26,143 nt of DNA, taken from positions 1 to 26,143 of the IMG/VR virus record IMGVR_UViG_3300036862_000011, one strand, 5' to 3'. This DNA comes from a virus. The notes beneath the pieces are model-generated. The model did no database searches, had not been told where the DNA came from, and worked only from the letters and a program-made list of their open reading frames with translations. Shown here piece after piece: positions 3,538 through 22,021 of the stretch. Made by a program: the position numbers and the translations under genes. Numbering within the stretch: the stretch's first letter is position 1; each line of letters opens with the position of its first letter.

Positions 3538-3762
3538 TCACGGCCCCATGAATTGCTTGGCGAATTCAGGATTGCTTTGTATCATTTGCAAGAACTGCAT
3601 TCGACTCATGGGTTGTTGTCCCGCTTCTACTGCCTGCGATACATGCTTTGCATAAGCATCTTGATTGCCGAGTATTCCAGCAGGTGAAGTCGGGCTCATC
3701 ATGCCTTTCAAGCGCGCCAGCCAGTTCATTCCGCCTTGTTGTGGTTGTCCATAGTCCGGCAT
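3538..3762 (-). CDS. Hypothetical small protein, Q/M-rich, 74 aa
   Basis: The ATG has AGGAGA at 6-base spacing. The product is Gln/Met/Pro-rich (MPDYGQPQQGGMNWLARLKG at the start; MSRMQFLQMIQSNPEF near the end) with no membrane segment. The composition resembles the N-termini of the large ejection-type proteins upstream, so it may be a small virion protein. It is the first gene of the minus-strand lysis segment after the interruption by two + genes. A promoter of its own in 3763-3837 is possible but I see no convincing minus-strand boxes. Confidence 0.6.
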   Translation of the reverse strand: MPDYGQPQQGGMNWLARLKGMMSPTSPAGILGNQDAYAKHVSQAVEAGQQPMSRMQFLQMIQSNPEFAKQFMGP

Positions 3763-3782
3763 GATCTTCTCCTATGATTCGG

Positions 3783-3812
3783 TTAACAGAAATTTATGCT
3801 ACTACAGATTAT
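3783..3812 (+). promoter_or_regulatory. Candidate promoter for the two + strand membrane genes
   Basis: TTAACA (3783-3788, 5 of 6 to the sigma70 -35 box) and GATTAT (3807-3812, 4 of 6 to the -10 box) are spaced by 18 bases and lie 26 bases before an ATG with a strong SD. The boxes fall in the short divergent gap 3763-3837. Confidence 0.4.
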
Positions 3813-3837
3813 GCTGTTTCCTCAATTAGGAGGAAAT

Positions 3838-3975
3838 ATGTTCTGGATAAAACTTATTGCGCAAATGTTTGCTCTTTTGATTCTGCCATTAATATTAGCA
3901 GCCATCATTCCGCCAATAGCCGTCTATGCCGTCGAAGCGCTTGTGATTCTTTATATTCATGGCGAGCTGTCATGA
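3838..3975 (+). CDS. Small membrane protein A on the opposite strand, 45 aa
   Basis: A perfect AGGAGG lies 5 bases before the ATG. The product is almost entirely hydrophobic (FWIKLIAQMFALLILPLIL, then AAIIPPIAVYAVEALVILYI) with a central Pro-Pro break, so one long or two short membrane helices are likely. The tail is polar (HGELS). It is read on the + strand while all flanking late genes are read on the minus strand, and it overlaps the next small gene by 4 bases (ATGA). Size and topology allow a holin, antiholin or membrane toxin-like role, but no family is recognised. Confidence 0.65.
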   Translation: MFWIKLIAQMFALLILPLILAAIIPPIAVYAVEALVILYIHGELS

Positions 3976-4109
3976 AAGTTATCATTGCCTTTTGTATCCT
4001 ATGTCTCGTCGCTTTTTCCGGGCATATCATTGTGCGGCTTTTTGCCATCTGCCTACGCGGCATAAATCGGCTGACTACTCCGCCCTGGACGCCTCCCGAG
4101 AAGGACTAA
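3972..4109 (+). CDS. Small membrane protein B on the opposite strand, 45 aa
   Basis: This starts in the ATGA overlap with membrane protein A, with GGCGAG just upstream. It has one hydrophobic helix at about residues 3-28 (IIAFCILCLVAFSGHIIVR and following), a basic stretch (CLRGINR) and a Pro-rich tail (TTPPWTPPEKD). The N-terminal half also resembles an uncleaved signal anchor. The last 35 bases are antisense to the 3' end of the 672-residue ejection-protein gene. A pair of co-translated small membrane proteins is reminiscent of holin/antiholin pairs; this is an inference only. Confidence 0.6.
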   Translation: MKVIIAFCILCLVAFSGHIIVRLFAICLRGINRLTTPPWTPPEKD

Positions 4110-6093
4110 GCGCTTTCTCAATCCGCAGGCGCATTTTTTTATCCTTCATCCTCCCTAATACGAATTTTAGGCCGCTTCCGATAGGCAGTGGCACACCGGT
4201 TGCGGCAAAAGTAATGCCGCCCTCAATAATCATGGCCTTGATGCTTGATGCCGTGTTGGAATAATTTACTGCGCCAGCGACGGGAATATTTAAGTCGTCA
4301 ATCACCTGAGAAAGCTCTCTCAATTTGGCTGCATTATTTTTGCCAAAAATAAGATCGAGCTTTTCATCGCTAATTGTCTTTAATGCCTTTGACATGCCAG
4401 CGGGAGAGACTATTGGCTGACCATAAGCATCAGTTACGGATTTATTTTTCGTGGCCTGTTCTTTTAACCAATCTATTGTTACGCCCTGCAAGTCTCTCCA
4501 TGCCTGCGCACCTTTTGGGCCGCCACGAAATAATGTAGTCCGAAGATTGCGTAGATCTTGAATGGAATATTCACCGGGAACTGCTTTTTGCCAAACATCC
4601 TCATAGGCAATAGCCCTATCAGTCGTTCCAGGTTTTGTCGCTAGAATTTTTGCAATCGCACCTTGATTCTTGAACTCGTTCGCGTATCGCTCATATGAGC
4701 GTCTAGCGGCTTTGTATGTTTCGCCGCCTTGTCCTTCAGTAAGTTGGTCAATGATTCTTTTTGCCGGCGGCCCAAAGTAAGAATTAGCGCCTTCTGTGGA
4801 ATTGGCCCCAATCGTTTTGCGAATTTCTTCCAGATCGTAAATCGGCAATGGTTTCCCCGTAGGAATCAAATCCCCTTCTGGACCGATTTCCGCAGCACCT
4901 AATCTTTTTAGCTCTCGACTTATTACATTTAAGACGGGCGCATTGGTGGCAGAAGAGATATTTTTGTTGGCATAATCAATGAGAGAATCTACCGGCAATT
5001 CATCATTCATTGCGCCTTGTTGCCTTGCAATTTTATATTTCGTGTCGACTTCAGACTTCGCCGCCATCATGCGATTCCGGGTAACATTATCAATACGCTT
5101 TCCTAGTTCGATCATTGTCGGCGCGGTACCTCCGGTCTGCTCTTGATAGACATCAAAATTTTGCATTAGCCGCGCATTGTTTTCTGCATTCCGCTCGCGA
5201 AGCGGTAGTCCTTCTTCAGTTTTTGCGATATCGCTCTCGAATTTTTGTTGTGTCAGATCGCGAGAAAGCGTCCCTTCTGTTGGCTTTACCGGCACCGGCA
5301 AATTCTCGGCTCTTGCCAATCGTTGGGCACGTAATTCAGCTTCTGCCGCCCCAACGCCAGGCATTGCTGCTATGGCCTCTTGAGGCGTCTTCGTGATAAA
5401 CTTTTCAAACAATGGTGAGACTGTTCTTCCGACGGCTTGCTCAGCCTTCATTGCTGCGCCGCCAATCCCGGCCTTGATAGCCCCAGTTGGGAATCCTGGA
5501 GATATTGGCGGCAATGAGCCAAGGACTTCAGCAGCCTTTTCGGTGATGGCTTGCCCGGTCTGGCTACGCGGCTGATAGGTTAATGCCCCCGCAGTTTCCA
5601 TTGCCTTCTGTTCCGCCTCTGGCATCGGCGCACCGCCAATACGCGCCGCCGCCCCACGAATACCGCCAGCAATACCGCCTAGCATTCCACTACCCATTGC
5701 CAGCGCTGTTTCCCCTGCGCCCATAGCGGCTTCTAGGCGAGGATATTCAGCCGCGAATTTTTCAGCCGCAGTTGGCCCTTGAGCCGCTGATTGCGAAGAG
5801 GCTTGGCCTTGTATGCCGGATGGAATTTGCTCCAGCATTTGCATGGGTGTTTTGGGCGCAGCCTTCGGCTCTGATGCGGACTCTTCAAGAATCCATCGAT
5901 CCTGTCTGGCTTGTTGCATTCGCGGCTGCGCCGCTTGGCCGATTGGCGCACCATTCCAATTCATAGCGATCATGCCTGGCGTAGGAGTTCGCCCAGGGGC
6001 GCGAACTTGCAGATTGGACGTTCCTTCCTTGATATCAGTCGCCGTAGTGCCCGGAGCACCCATTGGCTGATCGTCTTCGAGAACCCAAGGCAT
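4075..6093 (-). CDS. Large virion/DNA-ejection-type protein, 672 aa
   Basis: The start ATG is in a TAATG overlap with the previous stop and has GAGGG 8 bases upstream. The frame extends upstream to 6111 only through a TTG codon. The N-terminal roughly 130 residues are Gln/Pro/Ala-rich and low-complexity. Then follows an Ala/Gly-rich stretch (about 130-165: AMGAGETALAMGSGMLGGIAGGIRGAA) that could be membrane-active. A long charged helical region covers about 250-600, and a basic C-terminus ends MKDKKMRLRIEKAL. Third of three consecutive large proteins between tail fibres and lysis genes, in the position of podovirus internal virion (ejection) proteins such as P22 gp7/gp20/gp16. No lysozyme motif is seen. 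Confidence 0.65.
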   Translation of the reverse strand: MPWVLEDDQPMGAPGTTATDIKEGTSNLQVRAPGRTPTPGMIAMNWNGAPIGQAAQPRMQQARQDRWILEESASEPKAAPKTPMQMLEQIPSGIQGQASSQSAAQGPTAAEKFAAEYPRLEAAMGAGETALAMGSGMLGGIAGGIRGAAARIGGAPMPEAEQKAMETAGALTYQPRSQTGQAITEKAAEVLGSLPPISPGFPTGAIKAGIGGAAMKAEQAVGRTVSPLFEKFITKTPQEAIAAMPGVGAAEAELRAQRLARAENLPVPVKPTEGTLSRDLTQQKFESDIAKTEEGLPLRERNAENNARLMQNFDVYQEQTGGTAPTMIELGKRIDNVTRNRMMAAKSEVDTKYKIARQQGAMNDELPVDSLIDYANKNISSATNAPVLNVISRELKRLGAAEIGPEGDLIPTGKPLPIYDLEEIRKTIGANSTEGANSYFGPPAKRIIDQLTEGQGGETYKAARRSYERYANEFKNQGAIAKILATKPGTTDRAIAYEDVWQKAVPGEYSIQDLRNLRTTLFRGGPKGAQAWRDLQGVTIDWLKEQATKNKSVTDAYGQPIVSPAGMSKALKTISDEKLDLIFGKNNAAKLRELSQVIDDLNIPVAGAVNYSNTASSIKAMIIEGGITFAATGVPLPIGSGLKFVLGRMKDKKMRLRIEKALSPSREASRAE
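4110..4140 (+). terminator. Weak candidate terminator after the + membrane pair
   Basis: GCGC (4110-4113) can pair with GCGC (4129-4132), followed by A and seven T (4134-4140). The stem is only 4 bp with a 15-base loop. It lies inside the 3' end of the opposing gene. Confidence 0.3.
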
Positions 6094-15561: not shown

Positions 15562-16044
15562 TTAGAGGTGTTTCCAGGTATAGCGATGAACAATATCTCT
15601 GATTACGGTTGGATCAAGCATATATTCCTTAGCGAGCATGAACTGCCGCGCACCCATTGCAAATAGCCAGCGAATTTCGCGAATCATTTCTTCTGAATAT
15701 TTAGCCGTTGGATGCGTTTCGCCTTTTGCCGCTTCGCGACCGAGAACATGGAATAAATGTAGATTATTTTCTGAGGCGGTAACAATTTCCAGATTCTCGA
15801 CGCGATTATCAGAGCGATTGCCGTTTTTATGGTTTACGTGATACTTTTTAGGGATTGGACCAATGAAAGTTTTTGCGACAATTCTATGAATAAATCTTTC
15901 TCCATCTAGATTTCTAGTGAAATGAGGATATCCGGAATTCAATCGGCATTTAATTATTTGCCCACTTGAATTACGAATTCTTCCTTCAGAACTAATTTCG
16001 AAGATTTCTGAATTGCCAGCTTTTACAAACTTCCATTGCTCCAT
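15562..16044 (-). CDS. HNH homing endonuclease with NUMOD4-like N-terminus, 160 aa
   Basis: The ATG at 16044 (MEQWKFVKAG) has AGGAGA 7 bases upstream. An extension to 16092 would run into the coat gene and is rejected. Residues about 1-35 (EIFEISSEGRIRNSSGQIIK) match the NUMOD4 DNA-recognition motif. Residues 50-100 form the HNH core (HRIVAKTFIG; YHVNHKNGNRSDNRVENLEI; TASENN). The C-terminal part (SEEMIREIRWLFAMGARQFM; LDPTVIRDIVHRY) looks like a helix-turn-helix DNA-binding unit. It is a free-standing nuclease between coat and decoration genes and AT-richer than both, which fits a recently acquired selfish gene. It probably cuts homologous phage DNA near this site. Confidence 0.88.
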   Translation of the reverse strand: MEQWKFVKAGNSEIFEISSEGRIRNSSGQIIKCRLNSGYPHFTRNLDGERFIHRIVAKTFIGPIPKKYHVNHKNGNRSDNRVENLEIVTASENNLHLFHVLGREAAKGETHPTAKYSEEMIREIRWLFAMGARQFMLAKEYMLDPTVIRDIVHRYTWKHL

Positions 16045-16067
16045 TAGCGTATCTCCTAAGTCATTGA

Positions 16068-17249
16068 TTATGAAGTGATTCGCACGCCCCATTCAGGCCG
16101 CAATGCAGCGAATCCATACAAGATATCCACACGAGTAAGATATTCGTCATTTCGAATATCCCCATCCGACCATACTCGCAACGATATCCCGTCGTAGGTT
16201 TTGCGTGAGCATTCGCCAGGCATAATCGGCAAGTCAGCTGTCGCGAATGTATACGCTTCCTTGTGGTACATGAGATCTTGCGCGTAAGTCGTTGAGGCGG
16301 AACCAACGAACACGATGTCATCATTGTCAGCTGGAAGCTGCGTGACGTTTTGTCGCGGCCCAGAAGCATAGATAGCAGGTTGGAAGGTGATAAGCGTCGT
16401 CGTTGCCGCCGTCACGGTGAATTGCTGAAGATGCGAATACGCCTGTTTGGTTTCCGGATGAACCGCCTTTGAAAGCTCGAAAGTAAACACTGACCCGACA
16501 GTAGGCGCCGCCGTGAAGCCATCAACTGTCACAGTTGTCGCTCCTTCCGTCACGCCGCCGGCCATATTCACTTCACCGGCAACATCCGCGCCATTCGTAT
16601 GACGATAGGTCCGTTCATTGGCGTACCAATCAGCCATCGTAGTACGGCCAATAATACCTTCGCGATATTGCTGCTTGATTTGCGAAGCATCCTGGAATAG
16701 ACCCTTATTCGCCCCGACCATCTTCGCCATCGTAATGCTATTGACTTGCAGCGAACGATTGTCATCTTCAGGCGCTAGGTACTGATTGAGCTTGGCCTGC
16801 GCATTAGCAAAGATTTCCAAATCATTCGGGACCGTACCTGGCGTGCCGACAAGGTTGTAGGTTGCTTTCGTCATTGCGGTCAAATAGTCCGCCTCAATGC
16901 CGGAAACGAGAACAGCCATTGCTGGCTCTAAGATGCGCTTTGAATAATCATCCAGCTTTAAAGCTCGCTCGGCGGAAGTGAAGGCGATATCAACGCCATC
17001 CTGCGTCGCAACCGTCAATGCTACGCTTTCTTCGATGGTATCTTGTACGGCCATGATGCGAGAGTTTGTGCGTCTGACATATCGAACCGGCTTTCTGATT
17101 CGAAGCGTATCGCCGATCTTTGCGCCTGTCTTAGCGAAAGAGTCGTCATAACTACGGTCGGTTGTTGCAATGAATTTCGTTTTCTCGTGGGCGATGCGAA
17201 GCGCCTCGCGAGTGATCATATCGATCGTAAGTAAAGTATTGGTAGCCAT
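16068..17249 (-). CDS. Major capsid (coat) protein, P22 gp5-type, 393 aa
   Basis: This forms the icosahedral head. The N-terminus TLLTIDMITREALRIAHEKT, the DRSYDDSFAKTGAKIGDTLR block and IRKPVRYVRR are typical of the P22 coat family (HK97 fold with the N-arm first). They are followed by EESVALTVATQDGVDIAFTS and a C-terminal DILYGFAALRPEWGVRI. It is slightly shorter than P22 gp5 (430 residues). AAGGA precedes the ATG, and the SD follows a small hairpin in the leader. The scaffold gene lies upstream and the HNH and decoration genes downstream. A paralogue of the first ~58 residues is encoded at 20445-20744. Confidence 0.92.
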   Translation of the reverse strand: MATNTLLTIDMITREALRIAHEKTKFIATTDRSYDDSFAKTGAKIGDTLRIRKPVRYVRRTNSRIMAVQDTIEESVALTVATQDGVDIAFTSAERALKLDDYSKRILEPAMAVLVSGIEADYLTAMTKATYNLVGTPGTVPNDLEIFANAQAKLNQYLAPEDDNRSLQVNSITMAKMVGANKGLFQDASQIKQQYREGIIGRTTMADWYANERTYRHTNGADVAGEVNMAGGVTEGATTVTVDGFTAAPTVGSVFTFELSKAVHPETKQAYSHLQQFTVTAATTTLITFQPAIYASGPRQNVTQLPADNDDIVFVGSASTTYAQDLMYHKEAYTFATADLPIMPGECSRKTYDGISLRVWSDGDIRNDEYLTRVDILYGFAALRPEWGVRITS

Positions 17250-17334: not shown

Positions 17335-18198
17335 TCATTTTCGTCCCAGTTGTCGATTGCGCTTCGCAATCCATGTCTCCATGTCATCATTGGACGAGGG
17401 CAAATCACTACTTGCATTCTTTCCCGTGAGTGGATCGATGGGCGGAGGCGCGGCTGATTTTACTTTCGACAATGACACTTCCAGCTTACCTAATTCCAAT
17501 AGCTGCTTGCTCGGTGATAGTTTTGAGATCCTTAGCGCTTCTTCCTTGTGCTTCCCCAAGTGATAGAGCAATTCATCCGGCTTGTCTGATTCCAAAATCG
17601 CCTCACCCATCAACGGCGTTATTTGAACATCGCTCGCAAAGGCTACCTCATGGAAATCCGGGAATTTCTTCTCGGCTTCTTCTGAGATGGAATTCAACTT
17701 CGATTGATGTTCTAGCACTCGCTGGTGTTGAGTCTGTACTAGCTCGCGATGCTTGGCTTCAGATTGTTCCTTCTGAATACGCTCTTGCTCCGCCTTCCGT
17801 TCCGCCGCGTAAACTTGCTTGGCCTCCCATCTGGCTATTGCGCCTTGATACTTCTCATAACTATCGAACTGTTCAAGCTGAGGCTGACCTTCCGATTTAT
17901 CGACATTGCCTGCATCTGATTGCGTTCGTCCCTTGCTGAGCAGATCCAACAATTGTCGGTTCTGATCCTCAATGACTCGCGCGCGTTCTTCTGCCGCCCG
18001 TCGTTGCGCTGTTAATTCGCTAAATCGTTTATTTAGCCCGTCTTGTTTCTTGTTAGCAGTGTCATTGCTTTGTTGAGGTGCTGGCGCCTCAACCTTATTC
18101 TGTTCCCAAGGGGGAACCTCAGCTTGCTGTGTTTCTTGAACCACCACCTCTTCCGCGGGCGGAGTTACGTCTATCGTTTGTGCTTCGTTTTCATTCAT
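17335..18198 (-). CDS. Scaffolding protein, 287 aa
   Basis: Its position directly before the coat gene and its composition identify it as the assembly scaffold. It is highly charged and helical with no Cys-rich or catalytic motifs. It has an acidic/Pro-rich N-terminus (IDVTPPAEEVVVQETQQAEV), a long coiled-coil middle (RFSELTAQRRAAEERARVIE; RWEAKQVYAAERKAEQERIQ) and a basic C-terminus (METWIAKRNRQLGRK). P22 gp8 binds coat through a basic C-terminal helix-loop-helix, and this tail could do the same. Length is close to P22 gp8 (303). The ATG at 18198 has GGGGA at 6 bases; the frame before it uses TTG at 18210. Confidence 0.82.
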   Translation of the reverse strand: MNENEAQTIDVTPPAEEVVVQETQQAEVPPWEQNKVEAPAPQQSNDTANKKQDGLNKRFSELTAQRRAAEERARVIEDQNRQLLDLLSKGRTQSDAGNVDKSEGQPQLEQFDSYEKYQGAIARWEAKQVYAAERKAEQERIQKEQSEAKHRELVQTQHQRVLEHQSKLNSISEEAEKKFPDFHEVAFASDVQITPLMGEAILESDKPDELLYHLGKHKEEALRISKLSPSKQLLELGKLEVSLSKVKSAAPPPIDPLTGKNASSDLPSSNDDMETWIAKRNRQLGRK

Positions 18199-18349
18199 GG
18201 GATTCCCCAAGGATTAACCCGGTCGCCACCGGCCGGTAGGTTTTGTAAAATCGATTAATATCTTCTCGTAAAACGTCTTCTCTTCTCACAAAGTCAATGA
18301 TTCTTCGAGTTTCTTCTTCACTATTTTTTTGTTGCTCATCATTGTTCAT
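18191..18349 (-). CDS. Small charged protein between portal and scaffold, 52 aa
   Basis: This frame fills the gap between the portal stop (18358) and the scaffold start, and overlaps the scaffold start by 8 bases. The product starts MNNDEQQKNSEEETRRIIDF and continues with VRREDVLREDINRFYKTYRP. It is highly charged and predicted helical with no membrane segment. Its SD is weak, so it may be translated by coupling to the portal gene. Tiny genes at this position are often overlooked. The overlap pattern, like other genes here, favours it being real. Function unknown. Confidence 0.55.
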   Translation of the reverse strand: MNNDEQQKNSEEETRRIIDFVRREDVLREDINRFYKTYRPVATGLILGESHE

Positions 18350-18357
18350 GGAACGAT

Positions 18358-20448
18358 TCATCCAATCGCCCCTAATTCCGATGCCTGCGGTTGCGCCACA
18401 GTTGCCATACTACGAATATTTTCTGCGTGCGATTCTTCAATCTTAGCTTGGACTTCCATCCGCTTCGTTTGGGCGTCAATCTGCGTTGCCTGGAGCTCCA
18501 TTTGCTTAATCTGTAGATCAATTTGCTTCATTTGAATGTCGGCGGCCTTGCTCACTTTTTCCATTTGAAGTTTTTGCGCTTCCATTTGCGCTTGCTGCAA
18601 CGCCTGCCCCATCTGTTGCATCTGCGCTTGCATTTGCTGCATCTGCGCTTGGAGCTCAGGCGGAATTGCCTGATCACCCTTCTCTAGCTGCTGTATCTGC
18701 GGCGGCAACATAGCCTTCCATCGGTCGGCTATCTGATCGGCACCAGGCCAATCATTGGCGCGGAAGAAGATGTCTCCGGCTAGCTGCAAGAATTGTGGAT
18801 TGCCTTGCATGATCTGGACCATCGCCTCGACAGCTTCTTGGCGTTTCGTCGTGTAACTTGGCCCAACTGTCGCCAGCACGTCATAGCGACCGACATTCAG
18901 ATTGTAAATTTTCTCTACCGTGCCACTCAAAAGCGTTGTTTCGCGAACCGCCTGCGGCTGCGATGGATCTATGCGCGCCACATCAGTGGAATTATCCTCA
19001 CCCAATATTTGAATGATCTGCGCCTTATCAAAAACGCGGGGAATCATATCAATGAGAATGCGCCCCTTATGCGCAATCGCCATCGATAACCCATCAATGA
19101 AGTGATAGGTCGCCGTATCGCCTTCGCGTTGCCTGGCAATGATTGCTTTGCCGCTTGTCTCATTGGAACGCTGGCCTAGGCTAGCTTCATATTGGCCGGT
19201 GACCATCTTAATGGCATCATTGGCCAGCTGAAGCCCTTCCATGACGCCTTGTGGTGCCATCGCAAGCTGCGAGCGCTGAGGCGGCCCGACAGGATTACCT
19301 TCCGCATCTCTCGTTTTATATTTAAGGTAAGGAAGATTTGCTGTATGCGCCCTATTCCAATCTGCCTCATTGTCTTCGATTTGACCATCAGCAACGAGCC
19401 ATGGCACTTTCGGCTGTAACGCTACTGCCTCAATAAATGTTGACCATTGATAATTGAACACACGTTGAGGATCAACCGCGTCACGCACCAATCCTTTGAA
19501 ATATCGCTGACCATCAATATCAACGATCAATCCCGGCACGCGGATGATGGGAATGTATTTGGAAGGGAAATCCATGCCTTCGATTCCGCCTTCGAGAATC
19601 TTGCCGCTAGTTAGCTTCCACCATTTGACTTTCGTTTCTTCCTCTTCCGCGTAAGCAATCGCACCCGGCCTAGTCGTATGGTCATAACCTTGCTCGGCAC
19701 TATATTGAGTCCAATACTCAGTCTCGGTTATTTTCTGATTGTTGATCAGCGTCATGACGTTCTTAGTCGTCGTGACCTTCTCGAAATACTCAGCGACTCT
19801 TACTGTCTTGCGCGTAACCCAATCGGAACTACCTGCGCTCTCGTCTGCCCATTTTCCGGCTTCTTCTCCGTATCGAGATTCAAATTCATCCTTGGGGATC
19901 TCATCGACAACAAAAGCGCAGACAGCATCAGACCCGACAGGGCACATAGCGTTAGCGTCGAGATAGATGCTAAGAGGATTATGGACAGGCTTGACATATA
20001 TTCCTTGTTCATTGTCTTCCTTATTCGTGTAATCGGTCGTCAGTCGAATGTAACCCCATCCGCCCGTCACTTGATGATTTACTCCTACATCAGTAGCAAT
20101 GTCGCCGCTGGAACAGGCATCAATATGGCGGATTACGCCATCAAATACCTCAGCCACATCTGTGCTGGCATTCATGCTGACAGGGCGGACCTTGATCGTT
20201 GGGCGATTCTGACGGATATCATTTACGACCTGATAGACATGCTGTGCGGTGACATTGATCTCTACACATGGTCGCGGACTTGGTGGCATTTCCCTATCGC
20301 GTCTTATTTCTTCTGGCCATTGATGCCCGGGCAAATGTGTAAAGCGCATGTCTTGCAACCAAAGCAGACGATTAGATTCCTCGCAATCGGACGCCTCTTT
20401 GAACTTCTTGCGGACCTTCTCCAGGAACTTGTCTTCAGAATCGCTCAT
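18358..20448 (-). CDS. Portal protein, P22-type, 696 aa
   Basis: This is the dodecameric ring at the DNA-entry vertex. The N-terminus (EKVRKKFKEASDCEESNRLL, LQDMRFTHLPGHQWPEEIRR) and the RPCVEINVTAQHVYQVVNDI and IRQNRPTIKVRPV blocks are characteristic of P22-like portals. The length is close to P22 gp1 (725). The last ~120 residues are a Gln/Met-rich continuous helix (LQAQMQQMQAQMQQMGQAL, then IQMKQIDLQIKQMELQATQI), matching the long C-terminal helical barrel of the P22 portal. It starts in a 4-base overlap (ATGA) with the Tat/coat-like small gene. Confidence 0.92.
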   Translation of the reverse strand: MSDSEDKFLEKVRKKFKEASDCEESNRLLWLQDMRFTHLPGHQWPEEIRRDREMPPSPRPCVEINVTAQHVYQVVNDIRQNRPTIKVRPVSMNASTDVAEVFDGVIRHIDACSSGDIATDVGVNHQVTGGWGYIRLTTDYTNKEDNEQGIYVKPVHNPLSIYLDANAMCPVGSDAVCAFVVDEIPKDEFESRYGEEAGKWADESAGSSDWVTRKTVRVAEYFEKVTTTKNVMTLINNQKITETEYWTQYSAEQGYDHTTRPGAIAYAEEEETKVKWWKLTSGKILEGGIEGMDFPSKYIPIIRVPGLIVDIDGQRYFKGLVRDAVDPQRVFNYQWSTFIEAVALQPKVPWLVADGQIEDNEADWNRAHTANLPYLKYKTRDAEGNPVGPPQRSQLAMAPQGVMEGLQLANDAIKMVTGQYEASLGQRSNETSGKAIIARQREGDTATYHFIDGLSMAIAHKGRILIDMIPRVFDKAQIIQILGEDNSTDVARIDPSQPQAVRETTLLSGTVEKIYNLNVGRYDVLATVGPSYTTKRQEAVEAMVQIMQGNPQFLQLAGDIFFRANDWPGADQIADRWKAMLPPQIQQLEKGDQAIPPELQAQMQQMQAQMQQMGQALQQAQMEAQKLQMEKVSKAADIQMKQIDLQIKQMELQATQIDAQTKRMEVQAKIEESHAENIRSMATVAQPQASELGAIG

Positions 20449-20744
20449 TGATAGCGCCCTTTATACTTAGTAGGCATCCTGATGCGCAAAGTATCGCCAA
20501 TACTTGCGCCTATGAGGCTAAAAGAATCCTCATAAGTTCGATCTATCCTCATCATGTCGTGCAATTGTTCAACGGCGAGATGGAGCGCCTCGCGAGCGAT
20601 AAGATCTACCGACAACAATCCATTGACAGCAAGAGACTGATTGGGAACAATCAATTGCCTAATAGGCATTAAGATCTCTGCCTTGACAATGGCAGGCGCA
20701 ATGCCGAATGCCAATATGCCTTCAAGAAATCCTCGCCTGTTCAT
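20445..20744 (-). CDS. Tat-signal-like protein fused to a coat N-terminus paralogue, 99 aa
   Basis: The ATG at 20744 overlaps the terL stop (ATGA); an ATG at 20756 is less likely. Residues 1-22 (MNRRGFLEGILAFGIAPAIV) look like a twin-arginine signal: RRGFL, then a hydrophobic stretch, then KAE. Residues about 40-98 align with the start of the coat protein: LLSVDLIAREAL versus LLTIDMITREAL, DRTYEDSF versus DRSYDDSF, and IGDTLRIR identical, about half of 58 positions by eye. Coat homology stops there and the stop codon overlaps the portal start. I infer a partial coat duplication fused to a small Tat-like phage protein. Secretion, or a role in coat assembly, is open. Confidence 0.75.
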   Translation of the reverse strand: MNRRGFLEGILAFGIAPAIVKAEILMPIRQLIVPNQSLAVNGLLSVDLIAREALHLAVEQLHDMMRIDRTYEDSFSLIGASIGDTLRIRMPTKYKGRYQ

Positions 20745-22021
20745 GCTCCCATCCATGCGGCTGATTGGCCTGTGTAAACAGCCCTAGTTGCACTTGGCGG
20801 CTTGGATCTGCTCGTCTTGTCTTGGGCCGATACCGCGAATCCCATAAACGCCGATGCGCCATGACTAGCCCAATTGTGCATAGGCTCCTTGCTGAACTGG
20901 CCGCCTTCCAATACCTTATATTGATAATGCCTGAGCGCATGAATGCCATCAGCGCAACGCTCGCGATCAAACCAAACATTGGGGAAAATCGTTCGGGCTG
21001 TATTGATTTGTGCCTCTATTGGCAGCAAAGGAATGATATTTATTTTGCGTCCAAGCTCTCTTGCTTGCTGCTCCAGGCTTTTCCCATTAGCTGCGAGTGT
21101 CTTATGTCGACCATCATGCGGTAGCCAATCGGTATCATATATATAAGGTCGCTTCTGGAGTTCTTGAATGTACCAACCAAGCGTCTGCTGTGAGCTTTCT
21201 AGATAGTCAATGACGCGCCATTCGAAGCCGATACGCTGGACAAACCAGATAGCCGTCGCATCAAAAAGGCCGAGATCCCAGAATGTGGAAACTGGCTTGG
21301 CGGGATTGTAAGGAACGCGAGTCAATCGGCATGGTTCTGCAGCCTCAGCATCAGACAGCTGCTTGGCAAAGACGGCGCCCTCGACAGCTTTCTTGCACAA
21401 CCCATCCCAAATGTTCTGGTAACCGCTGGGATCGCGCACGAGACAGTCTTTGCGCTCCTGCTCAAGCACCTCATTGAACCATGGATTATCACGCCAGCTC
21501 ATGCGGATCACGATGGAATCGGTGGGAGGAAGGACGACGAAGCGCTGGTAGGTTTCGTCTTCCTCAAGCTCTGGGTTGAAATCGATGTAGATCTCCGAGC
21601 CAGTCTTGCGAATAGTCGGAATCAGCGTATCCCATGACATTTTCGAGACAGTTTGCGCCTCGGTCACCCAACAATCGTCCGCGCCTTCCAACGACTTGAT
21701 GCTCTTGATGTTGTGCTTCAGGCCATGGAAAGTGAACAGCGTACCGTTCCTGCCGATGATCTCCGTCTTCTTAACATCGTAGAAGTTATGCAGTCCGAGA
21801 TTGTGGATCTGCTCCGACAGCAACGCGTGAACGGAATCATCAATCGAGTTCTGGAACTCGCGAGCACAGATGATTCTCCGCTTCTCGCTAGCACCTCTGA
21901 GCAGGAGTCGCCTTGAGATTCCCCACGAAGCCCCTTTGCCGCGGCCGCCGTAGACGATCTTATATCGTGCTGGCTTAAACAGCTGCTGAAGTTTTTCCGG
22001 GAATTGGGCCGAGACAATCAT
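20741..22021 (-). CDS. Terminase large subunit (TerL), 426 aa
   Basis: This is the packaging ATPase and nuclease. The N-terminal ATPase has an unusual Walker A (YGGRGKGASW, residues 24-33) with Lys shifted from the usual GKS/T position, Walker B ADDCWVTEAQT (about 114-123) and coupling motif IYIDFNP (144-150). The C-terminal RNase H-like nuclease has Asp residues in STFWDLGLFDAT (D249, D254), WLPHDGRHKTL (D303) and CADGIHALRHY (D358). This is the Terminase_3/PBSX-type layout and the length is normal. It overlaps terS by 4 bases at its start and the Tat/coat-like gene at its end. Confidence 0.93.
   Translation of the reverse strand: MIVSAQFPEKLQQLFKPARYKIVYGGRGKGASWGISRRLLLRGASEKRRIICAREFQNSIDDSVHALLSEQIHNLGLHNFYDVKKTEIIGRNGTLFTFHGLKHNIKSIKSLEGADDCWVTEAQTVSKMSWDTLIPTIRKTGSEIYIDFNPELEEDETYQRFVVLPPTDSIVIRMSWRDNPWFNEVLEQERKDCLVRDPSGYQNIWDGLCKKAVEGAVFAKQLSDAEAAEPCRLTRVPYNPAKPVSTFWDLGLFDATAIWFVQRIGFEWRVIDYLESSQQTLGWYIQELQKRPYIYDTDWLPHDGRHKTLAANGKSLEQQARELGRKINIIPLLPIEAQINTARTIFPNVWFDRERCADGIHALRHYQYKVLEGGQFSKEPMHNWASHGASAFMGFAVSAQDKTSRSKPPSATRAVYTGQSAAWMGA

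Follow-up and report, generated by a model that had tools for sequence, protein, structure and literature searches.

The analysed window comprises 26,143 nucleotides of the virus record IMGVR_UViG_3300036862_000011, and all of its genes described here lie on the minus strand. The gene for the terminase large subunit, terL (20741..22021; PF04466, 6.4e-37), is followed by a small gene, P0001 (20445..20744; 99 aa plus stop), and by the portal gene (18358..20448; PF16510, 2.4e-166). The sequence-only reading had described P0001 as cleanly framed on both sides, and this is the case: the terL stop and the P0001 start share the ATGA at 20741-20744, and the P0001 stop and the portal start share the ATGA at 20445-20448. 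Downstream lie the genes for a scaffolding protein with a strongly basic C-terminus, AKRNRQLGRK (17335..18210; phrog_8865, 2.5e-40), and for a P22-type coat protein of 393 aa (16068..17249; PF11651, 5.9e-32; phrog_283, 2.4e-65). A Foldseek structure search showed that the coat model (pLDDT 67) resembles the solved coats of P22, Sf6 and CUS-3. In the predicted coat the long spine helix spans residues 99-134, and the C-terminal part consists of beta strand. The 3' end of the coat gene is overlapped by a gene for a free-standing HNH endonuclease (15562-16092; phrog_59, 4.9e-38), an enzyme that might favour breaks in the coat gene and its ectopic copying.

P0001 begins with a Tat-type leader (residues 1-27, 20664..20744; MNRRGFLEGILAFGIAPAIVKAEILMP), assigned by the family leader profile and h-region hydropathy given below. 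It reads RRGFL...APAIVKAEILMP and its twin-arginine motif is NRRGFL, so that the Tat-like signal proposed from the sequence alone, an RR motif plus a hydrophobic stretch, is present. Residues 28-37 (IRQLIVPNQS, 20634..20663) form a linker of the IIVP type that is also found in three other family members (L001, L002 and L080). The remainder, which we call the passenger (residues 38-97, 20454..20633), is a copy of residues 1-60 of the window's own coat protein, encoded at 17070..17249. In a BLASTP comparison the two segments aligned without gaps at 31 of 60 identical residues (52%; 66.6 bits, E 7e-19), with IGDTLRIR as the identical run, which bears out the earlier alignment of the P0001 C-terminus to the start of the coat. 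A tblastn search of P0001 against the whole record matched P0001 itself and the coat N-terminus, and nothing else. The relationship was also recovered with a coat HMM, whose alignment includes the window's own coat: the P0001 C-terminus scored 4e-16 and none of 105 reversed controls scored better than 0.01. Searches of P0001 against the Pfam, PHROG and NCBIfam models gave nothing convincing, with PF11651 and phrog_283 silent as well. Chance similarity between P0001 and the coat was ruled out by the BLASTP E-value, the reversed controls and the rarity of such segments in other small ORFs (2 of ~21,800, see below).

On the predicted coat the copied stretch takes in two helices, that of the N-arm (9-23) and that of the F-loop (35-41), and reaches into the first part of the E-loop, the loop names being assigned by analogy with P22. 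The description of P0001 as a paralogue of the coat N-arm was therefore correct as regards the N-arm helix but too narrow, as the match extends into the F-loop and the beginning of the E-loop. P0001 38-97 is homologous to the N-terminus of P22-type coats (PF11651, phrog_283) and keeps the acidic residues of the N-arm as well as IGDTLRIR; it differs from them in having only 60 of 393 residues, in the preceding signal and in lacking complete P-, A- and I-domains, so that the full HK97-fold coat is absent. The AlphaFold model of P0001 had low confidence (pLDDT 54) and was uninformative; the passenger may be unfolded on its own.

When IMG/VR was scanned with P0001, two relatives were found, L001 and L002. 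Their first 34-38 residues are ~70% identical to P0001, and their C-termini are wholly different. We then gathered the family (RR family) from IMG/VR with a single DNA pattern encoding PAIVxxxxLMP, in which the arginines were not included; many of the contigs are partial. Among the matches listed the pattern identified more than 100 loci in uncultivated phages, and at least 110 family matches carry RR even though the pattern did not require it. The twin arginine was found 10-15 residues upstream in every clear, complete member among the matches listed except one (L091). The profile of 104 aligned leaders among the matches listed is [SNT]RR[GS][FL][LI]xGL...AAPAIV[RK]AxSLMP[VI][KR], which we take to be the look of an alphaproteobacterial Tat signal. 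An R or K stands directly before the presumed cleavage region in 93% of these 104 leaders; this rate is partly favoured by the pattern, in which PAIV and LMP were invariant and the choice of residue behind PAIV was limited. Candidate signal peptidase sites with small residues at -3 and -1, judged by eye, are A-P-A or V-K-A/V-R-A.

The leaders of the family and of the window share with Tat signals (PF10518, TAT_signal) the S/T/N-RR-x-F/L-L consensus, a moderately hydrophobic h-region (mean Kyte-Doolittle value 1.96; window 1.88) and a basic c-region residue before the cleavage region, the latter two being features of Sec avoidance. PF10518 itself matched two family members weakly (E 0.0047 and 0.067, under the model cut-off). 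The RR leaders differ from Tat signals in the strongly conserved SLMP[VI][KR] that follows the signal and in their cargo, a piece of a phage virion protein in place of a folded enzyme. A stricter leader pattern matched 10 loci in 85,000 bacterial and archaeal species genomes, including records of Bradyrhizobium, Rhizobium and Methylocapsa. Because there were only ten such loci, the family seems to live mainly in non-integrated phages. No leader was found in isolate phages by tblastn, a search of limited power given the short or divergent queries. The combination of an RR leader with a virion fragment was absent from the family libraries and open-access papers that we searched, and the family is apparently undescribed. 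The breadth of the leader family rules out a one-off fusion. The coat fusion had been singled out as the new element of this locus, rightly so, but this understated the matter: it is one case of a widespread pattern of leaders joined to virion fragments.

To identify the passengers, long record stretches were fetched around most loci and HMMs were built from their own large ORF families. Among the matches listed the passengers are open frames of 36-163 aa, and 25 of 105 distinct passengers matched a family HMM at iE ≤ 1e-3, compared to none of the 105 reversed sequences. Nearly all of these matches were to an MCP or a portal, namely P22-type coats (phrog_283), the major head proteins phrog_9953 and phrog_212, and T7-type portals (phrog_332). 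BLAST added phrog_1357 as a further head-protein source. For the remaining 69 passengers among the matches listed, Pfam identified four as tail-collar and two as gp23, and an additional gp23-like RR gene was found in L020, which by eye also has its own gp23-like ORF. All identifiable passengers are pieces of virion proteins (coat N-arm, spine helix, I-domain, C-terminal strands, T7-type portal, T4-type gp23 and tail collar), and the capsid families that supply them are unrelated to one another. About two thirds of the passengers among the matches listed match no source, so the virion-fragment origin is shown for about one third of the family. As some RR genes share descent, passenger counts do not equal independent events.

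Several passengers are mosaics of two pieces: portal 288-310 plus MCP 106-145 in L049, MCP 49-75 plus portal 288-312 in G006, coat 361-398 plus 95-126 in G063, and coat 95-111 plus 2-57 in G035. More than one RR gene can occur in a genome. There are three in G063, and G048 has a run of three genes, each with a different coat segment. In the same record (L211, 21051-21326) a small ORF with coat residues 243-322 (I-domain) and no recognisable leader lies directly upstream of two RR genes carrying other coat pieces; a full-length P22-type coat was not found in this record. We regard it as almost certain that P0001 and its family are built from a twin-arginine leader and a variable C-terminus made, wherever its source can be recognised, of one or more short virion segments of the carrier's own kind.

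As a control we considered ~21,900 ORFs of ≤200 aa in the same genomes. An MCP or portal segment was present in ~22 of 112 RR ORFs among the matches listed, compared to only 2 of ~21,800 other small ORFs. Both exceptions are G048 ORFs, of which one has a variant RR leader; one more ORF with such a segment proved to be an RR gene cut at the locus edge. We also compared each passenger to its own genome. In genomes of known MCP type among the matches listed, the capsid type of the passenger agreed with that of the genome in 19 of 19 cases (permutation p ~1e-5). In genomes with one of the three modelled MCP types, 19 of 29 RR passengers are recognised MCP pieces. Own-genome BLAST matches at 1e-3 were obtained for 17 of 107 passengers among the matches listed, compared to 1.3 per other genome, with RR genes cut at locus boundaries excluded from the count.

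The segments used are not spread evenly over the source proteins. For P22-type coats the passengers cover profile residues 2-63, 92-126, 228-322 and 361-398, and never the A-domain region. Passengers from phrog_212 MCPs cover residues 49-75, 106-145 and 286-340, and those from phrog_9953 MCPs residues 5-43 and 107-160. We read the 106-160 stretch of these other MCPs as their probable spine helix, and the N-terminus, spine helix and C-terminal strands recur as passengers across different MCP families. We considered whether passengers are visible merely as the most conserved stretches of their sources. This was rejected, since phrog_212 and phrog_9953 MCPs have equally or more conserved stretches that are unused, though the counts are small and some share descent. 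The N-arm of the P22 coat spans residues 2-30, of which D14, E15 and E18, together with R101, contact the scaffold hook (PMC9965877). At P0001 residues 47 and 52 the acidic D10 and E15 of the window coat are conserved, and the window scaffold has a basic tail. By analogy with P22 this combination points to a scaffold contact, though it is suggestive only, and the scaffolding protein is a possible binding partner of the passenger.

We then asked where the passengers came from. In a tree of coat N-arms, built on ~75 columns, the window passenger groups with the window coat (97/80) and apart from the L264 and L265 coats, and other RR passengers are placed elsewhere. On this tree the lineage of the window's own coat is the source of the window passenger. 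As the other RR passengers lie elsewhere, at least two captures of the coat N-arm by RR genes are indicated by these sequences. A single old RR-coat fusion inherited vertically was rejected, because the well-supported branches, with the window passenger beside its own coat, require two changes or more. Simple tandem duplication next to the coat was likewise rejected as the general origin, because most RR genes lie kilobases from the coat and they are frequently on the opposite strand; it is possible in G009 and G030, whose RR gene is directly upstream of the coat. In the closest relatives, L264 and L265, there is no RR gene between terL and portal. This junction holds two other genes in L264 (1279-2668; ORF calls of 97 and ~373 aa), terL and portal abut in L265, and it looks like a site for accessory genes. 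The window passenger has a branch length of 1.17, compared to 0.15 for the coat.

Our favoured reading, to which we give a probability of about 40%, is that the family acts as Tat-targeted mimics or baits of coat partners. The leader would bring the protein to the Tat machinery for export or retention at the inner membrane, and the passenger, shaped like a coat surface, would bind the protein that normally binds that surface. The bound partner would then be held at the membrane or leave the cytoplasm together with the protein, by analogy with Tat 'hitchhiking', the co-export of a partner bound to a protein with a Tat signal (PMC4273604). One candidate partner would be the phage's scaffold or coat, with a role in assembly control or in interference with co-infecting relatives. 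Alternatively, the passenger might act as a decoy for a host immune sensor of virion proteins. Bacterial immune sensors of capsid proteins exist for other phages, as the pairs CapRel-MCP (PMC9712102) and Thoeris-MCP (PMC11312562) demonstrate, and a decoy role against such immunity is conceivable because the class of protein that they sense, the MCP, also supplies RR passengers. The bait reading is the most economical account of a Tat leader, a segment of the own virion and the spread across unrelated phages. The low-confidence fold of P0001 speaks against it; Tat cargo is normally folded. The large share of passengers that match no source and the weak constraint on the window passenger also count against it. 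A broader version, which we put forward tentatively and consider rather doubtful, is that unrelated tailed phages independently build such baits from a Tat signal and selected segments of their own virions (N-arm, spine helix, I-domain, C-terminal strands, portal and tail motifs) and would thereby gather host immune sensors or the assembly partners of competitors at the membrane or remove them from the cytoplasm.

The strongest rival to the bait reading is that the leader alone matters: with its conserved SLMP[VI][KR] tail it would occupy the Tat translocase or act as a membrane peptide, and the passenger would be filler from nearby late genes. We consider this unlikely, though several observations speak for it. 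In the VIPFEP group, the sole RR group with close relatives, pN/pS is near 0 for the leader and mostly 0.2-0.5 for the passenger, so the leader is far more constrained, and across the family the passengers are extremely diverse while at least 110 members retain RR. The window passenger, moreover, evolves nearly as fast as relaxed sequence. On its branch omega is ~0.6 with a 5-95% range of 0.25-1.61 (a three-point estimate, with synonymous distances to the outgroup saturated), and because of this range purifying constraint on it is unproven. The view that the gene looks maintained and not decayed is thus supported for the family by its open frames and the low pN/pS of one group, but for the window passenger itself the estimate is inconclusive. 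Filler, however, should neither track the capsid type strictly nor favour the same structural elements across unrelated capsid families, it has no need of two-piece virion mosaics, and the passengers of the VIPFEP group are under purifying selection.

A weaker rival is that the genes are recombination debris, in which ectopic recombination among late genes leaves short, harmless fusions that persist and whose fragment has no selected function. The HNH endonuclease gene at the end of the window coat gene would fit such an origin, as would the terL-portal junction of the relatives with its other genes or none. A strong association of RR genes with terL was rejected, but the modest one that was observed (24 of 63 within 1 kb, compared to 22% for random positions) also speaks for a by-product. 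Nevertheless, passenger frames of ≥40 codons were found in 104 of 105 cases among the matches listed, compared to 42% for random frames in the same loci. The clean ATGA framing of P0001, a divergence that is old and has left the sequence recognisable, the occurrence in one genome of several RR genes with different capsid pieces and the low pN/pS of the VIPFEP group also argue against debris, which we consider improbable. Slightly less probable still is a structural role, in which P0001 is not exported and is a minor component of the virion or procapsid, its coat-like segment docking on the shell or scaffold near the portal. It would suit a gene located between terL and portal that carries the scaffold-binding part of the coat. 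However, phages of different capsid families keep the features of a Tat signal, namely the twin arginine, the hydrophobic stretch and a basic residue ahead of the cleavage region, and RR genes are often far from head genes or on the opposite strand. The capping, poisoning or nucleation of assembly that the sequence-only reading had suggested explains, on its own, neither the Tat leader nor the tail-collar passengers, which count against any pure capsid-assembly role.

Fv1 and P4 Sid are capsid-directed interference or size-control proteins, and the same is described for SaPI CpmA/B (PMC5644958). All of these act on capsid assembly or on incoming capsids, and some are capsid-like. They resemble the RR family in idea only, as they have no link to an export signal and do not form a set of short pieces taken from the encoder's own virion proteins. 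In the RR family one leader is common to phages with at least five major head protein types and repeatedly precedes virion pieces of the kind that its carrier has. If the passengers act as baits, a list of the capsid and portal parts that partners or host sensors recognise could be read directly from sequence. If the leader alone matters, phages would have in it a widely used tool against the host Tat system. Under either reading the family gives clear predictions that can be tested with simple constructs.

Among the passengers that match no source, one RR subgroup, 'VKVIPFEPYMLVRG...' (L024, L039, L046, L060, L085, L105, L107, L121, L123, L250 and others), has a long, selected passenger and, by eye, adjoins primase-like and methyltransferase-like genes. 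The passengers of L071, L074, L098 and L114 share a Cys-rich motif, PRCxxCxxxxGMCxxTGGPL, which is unlike capsid fragments and possibly metal-binding. Finally, L020, a T4-like fragment, encodes another Tat-like protein with a different leader (SRRNMFGLIGGAAATLPLAVSAMG; 3670-4449, minus strand), which adjoins two RR-family genes.
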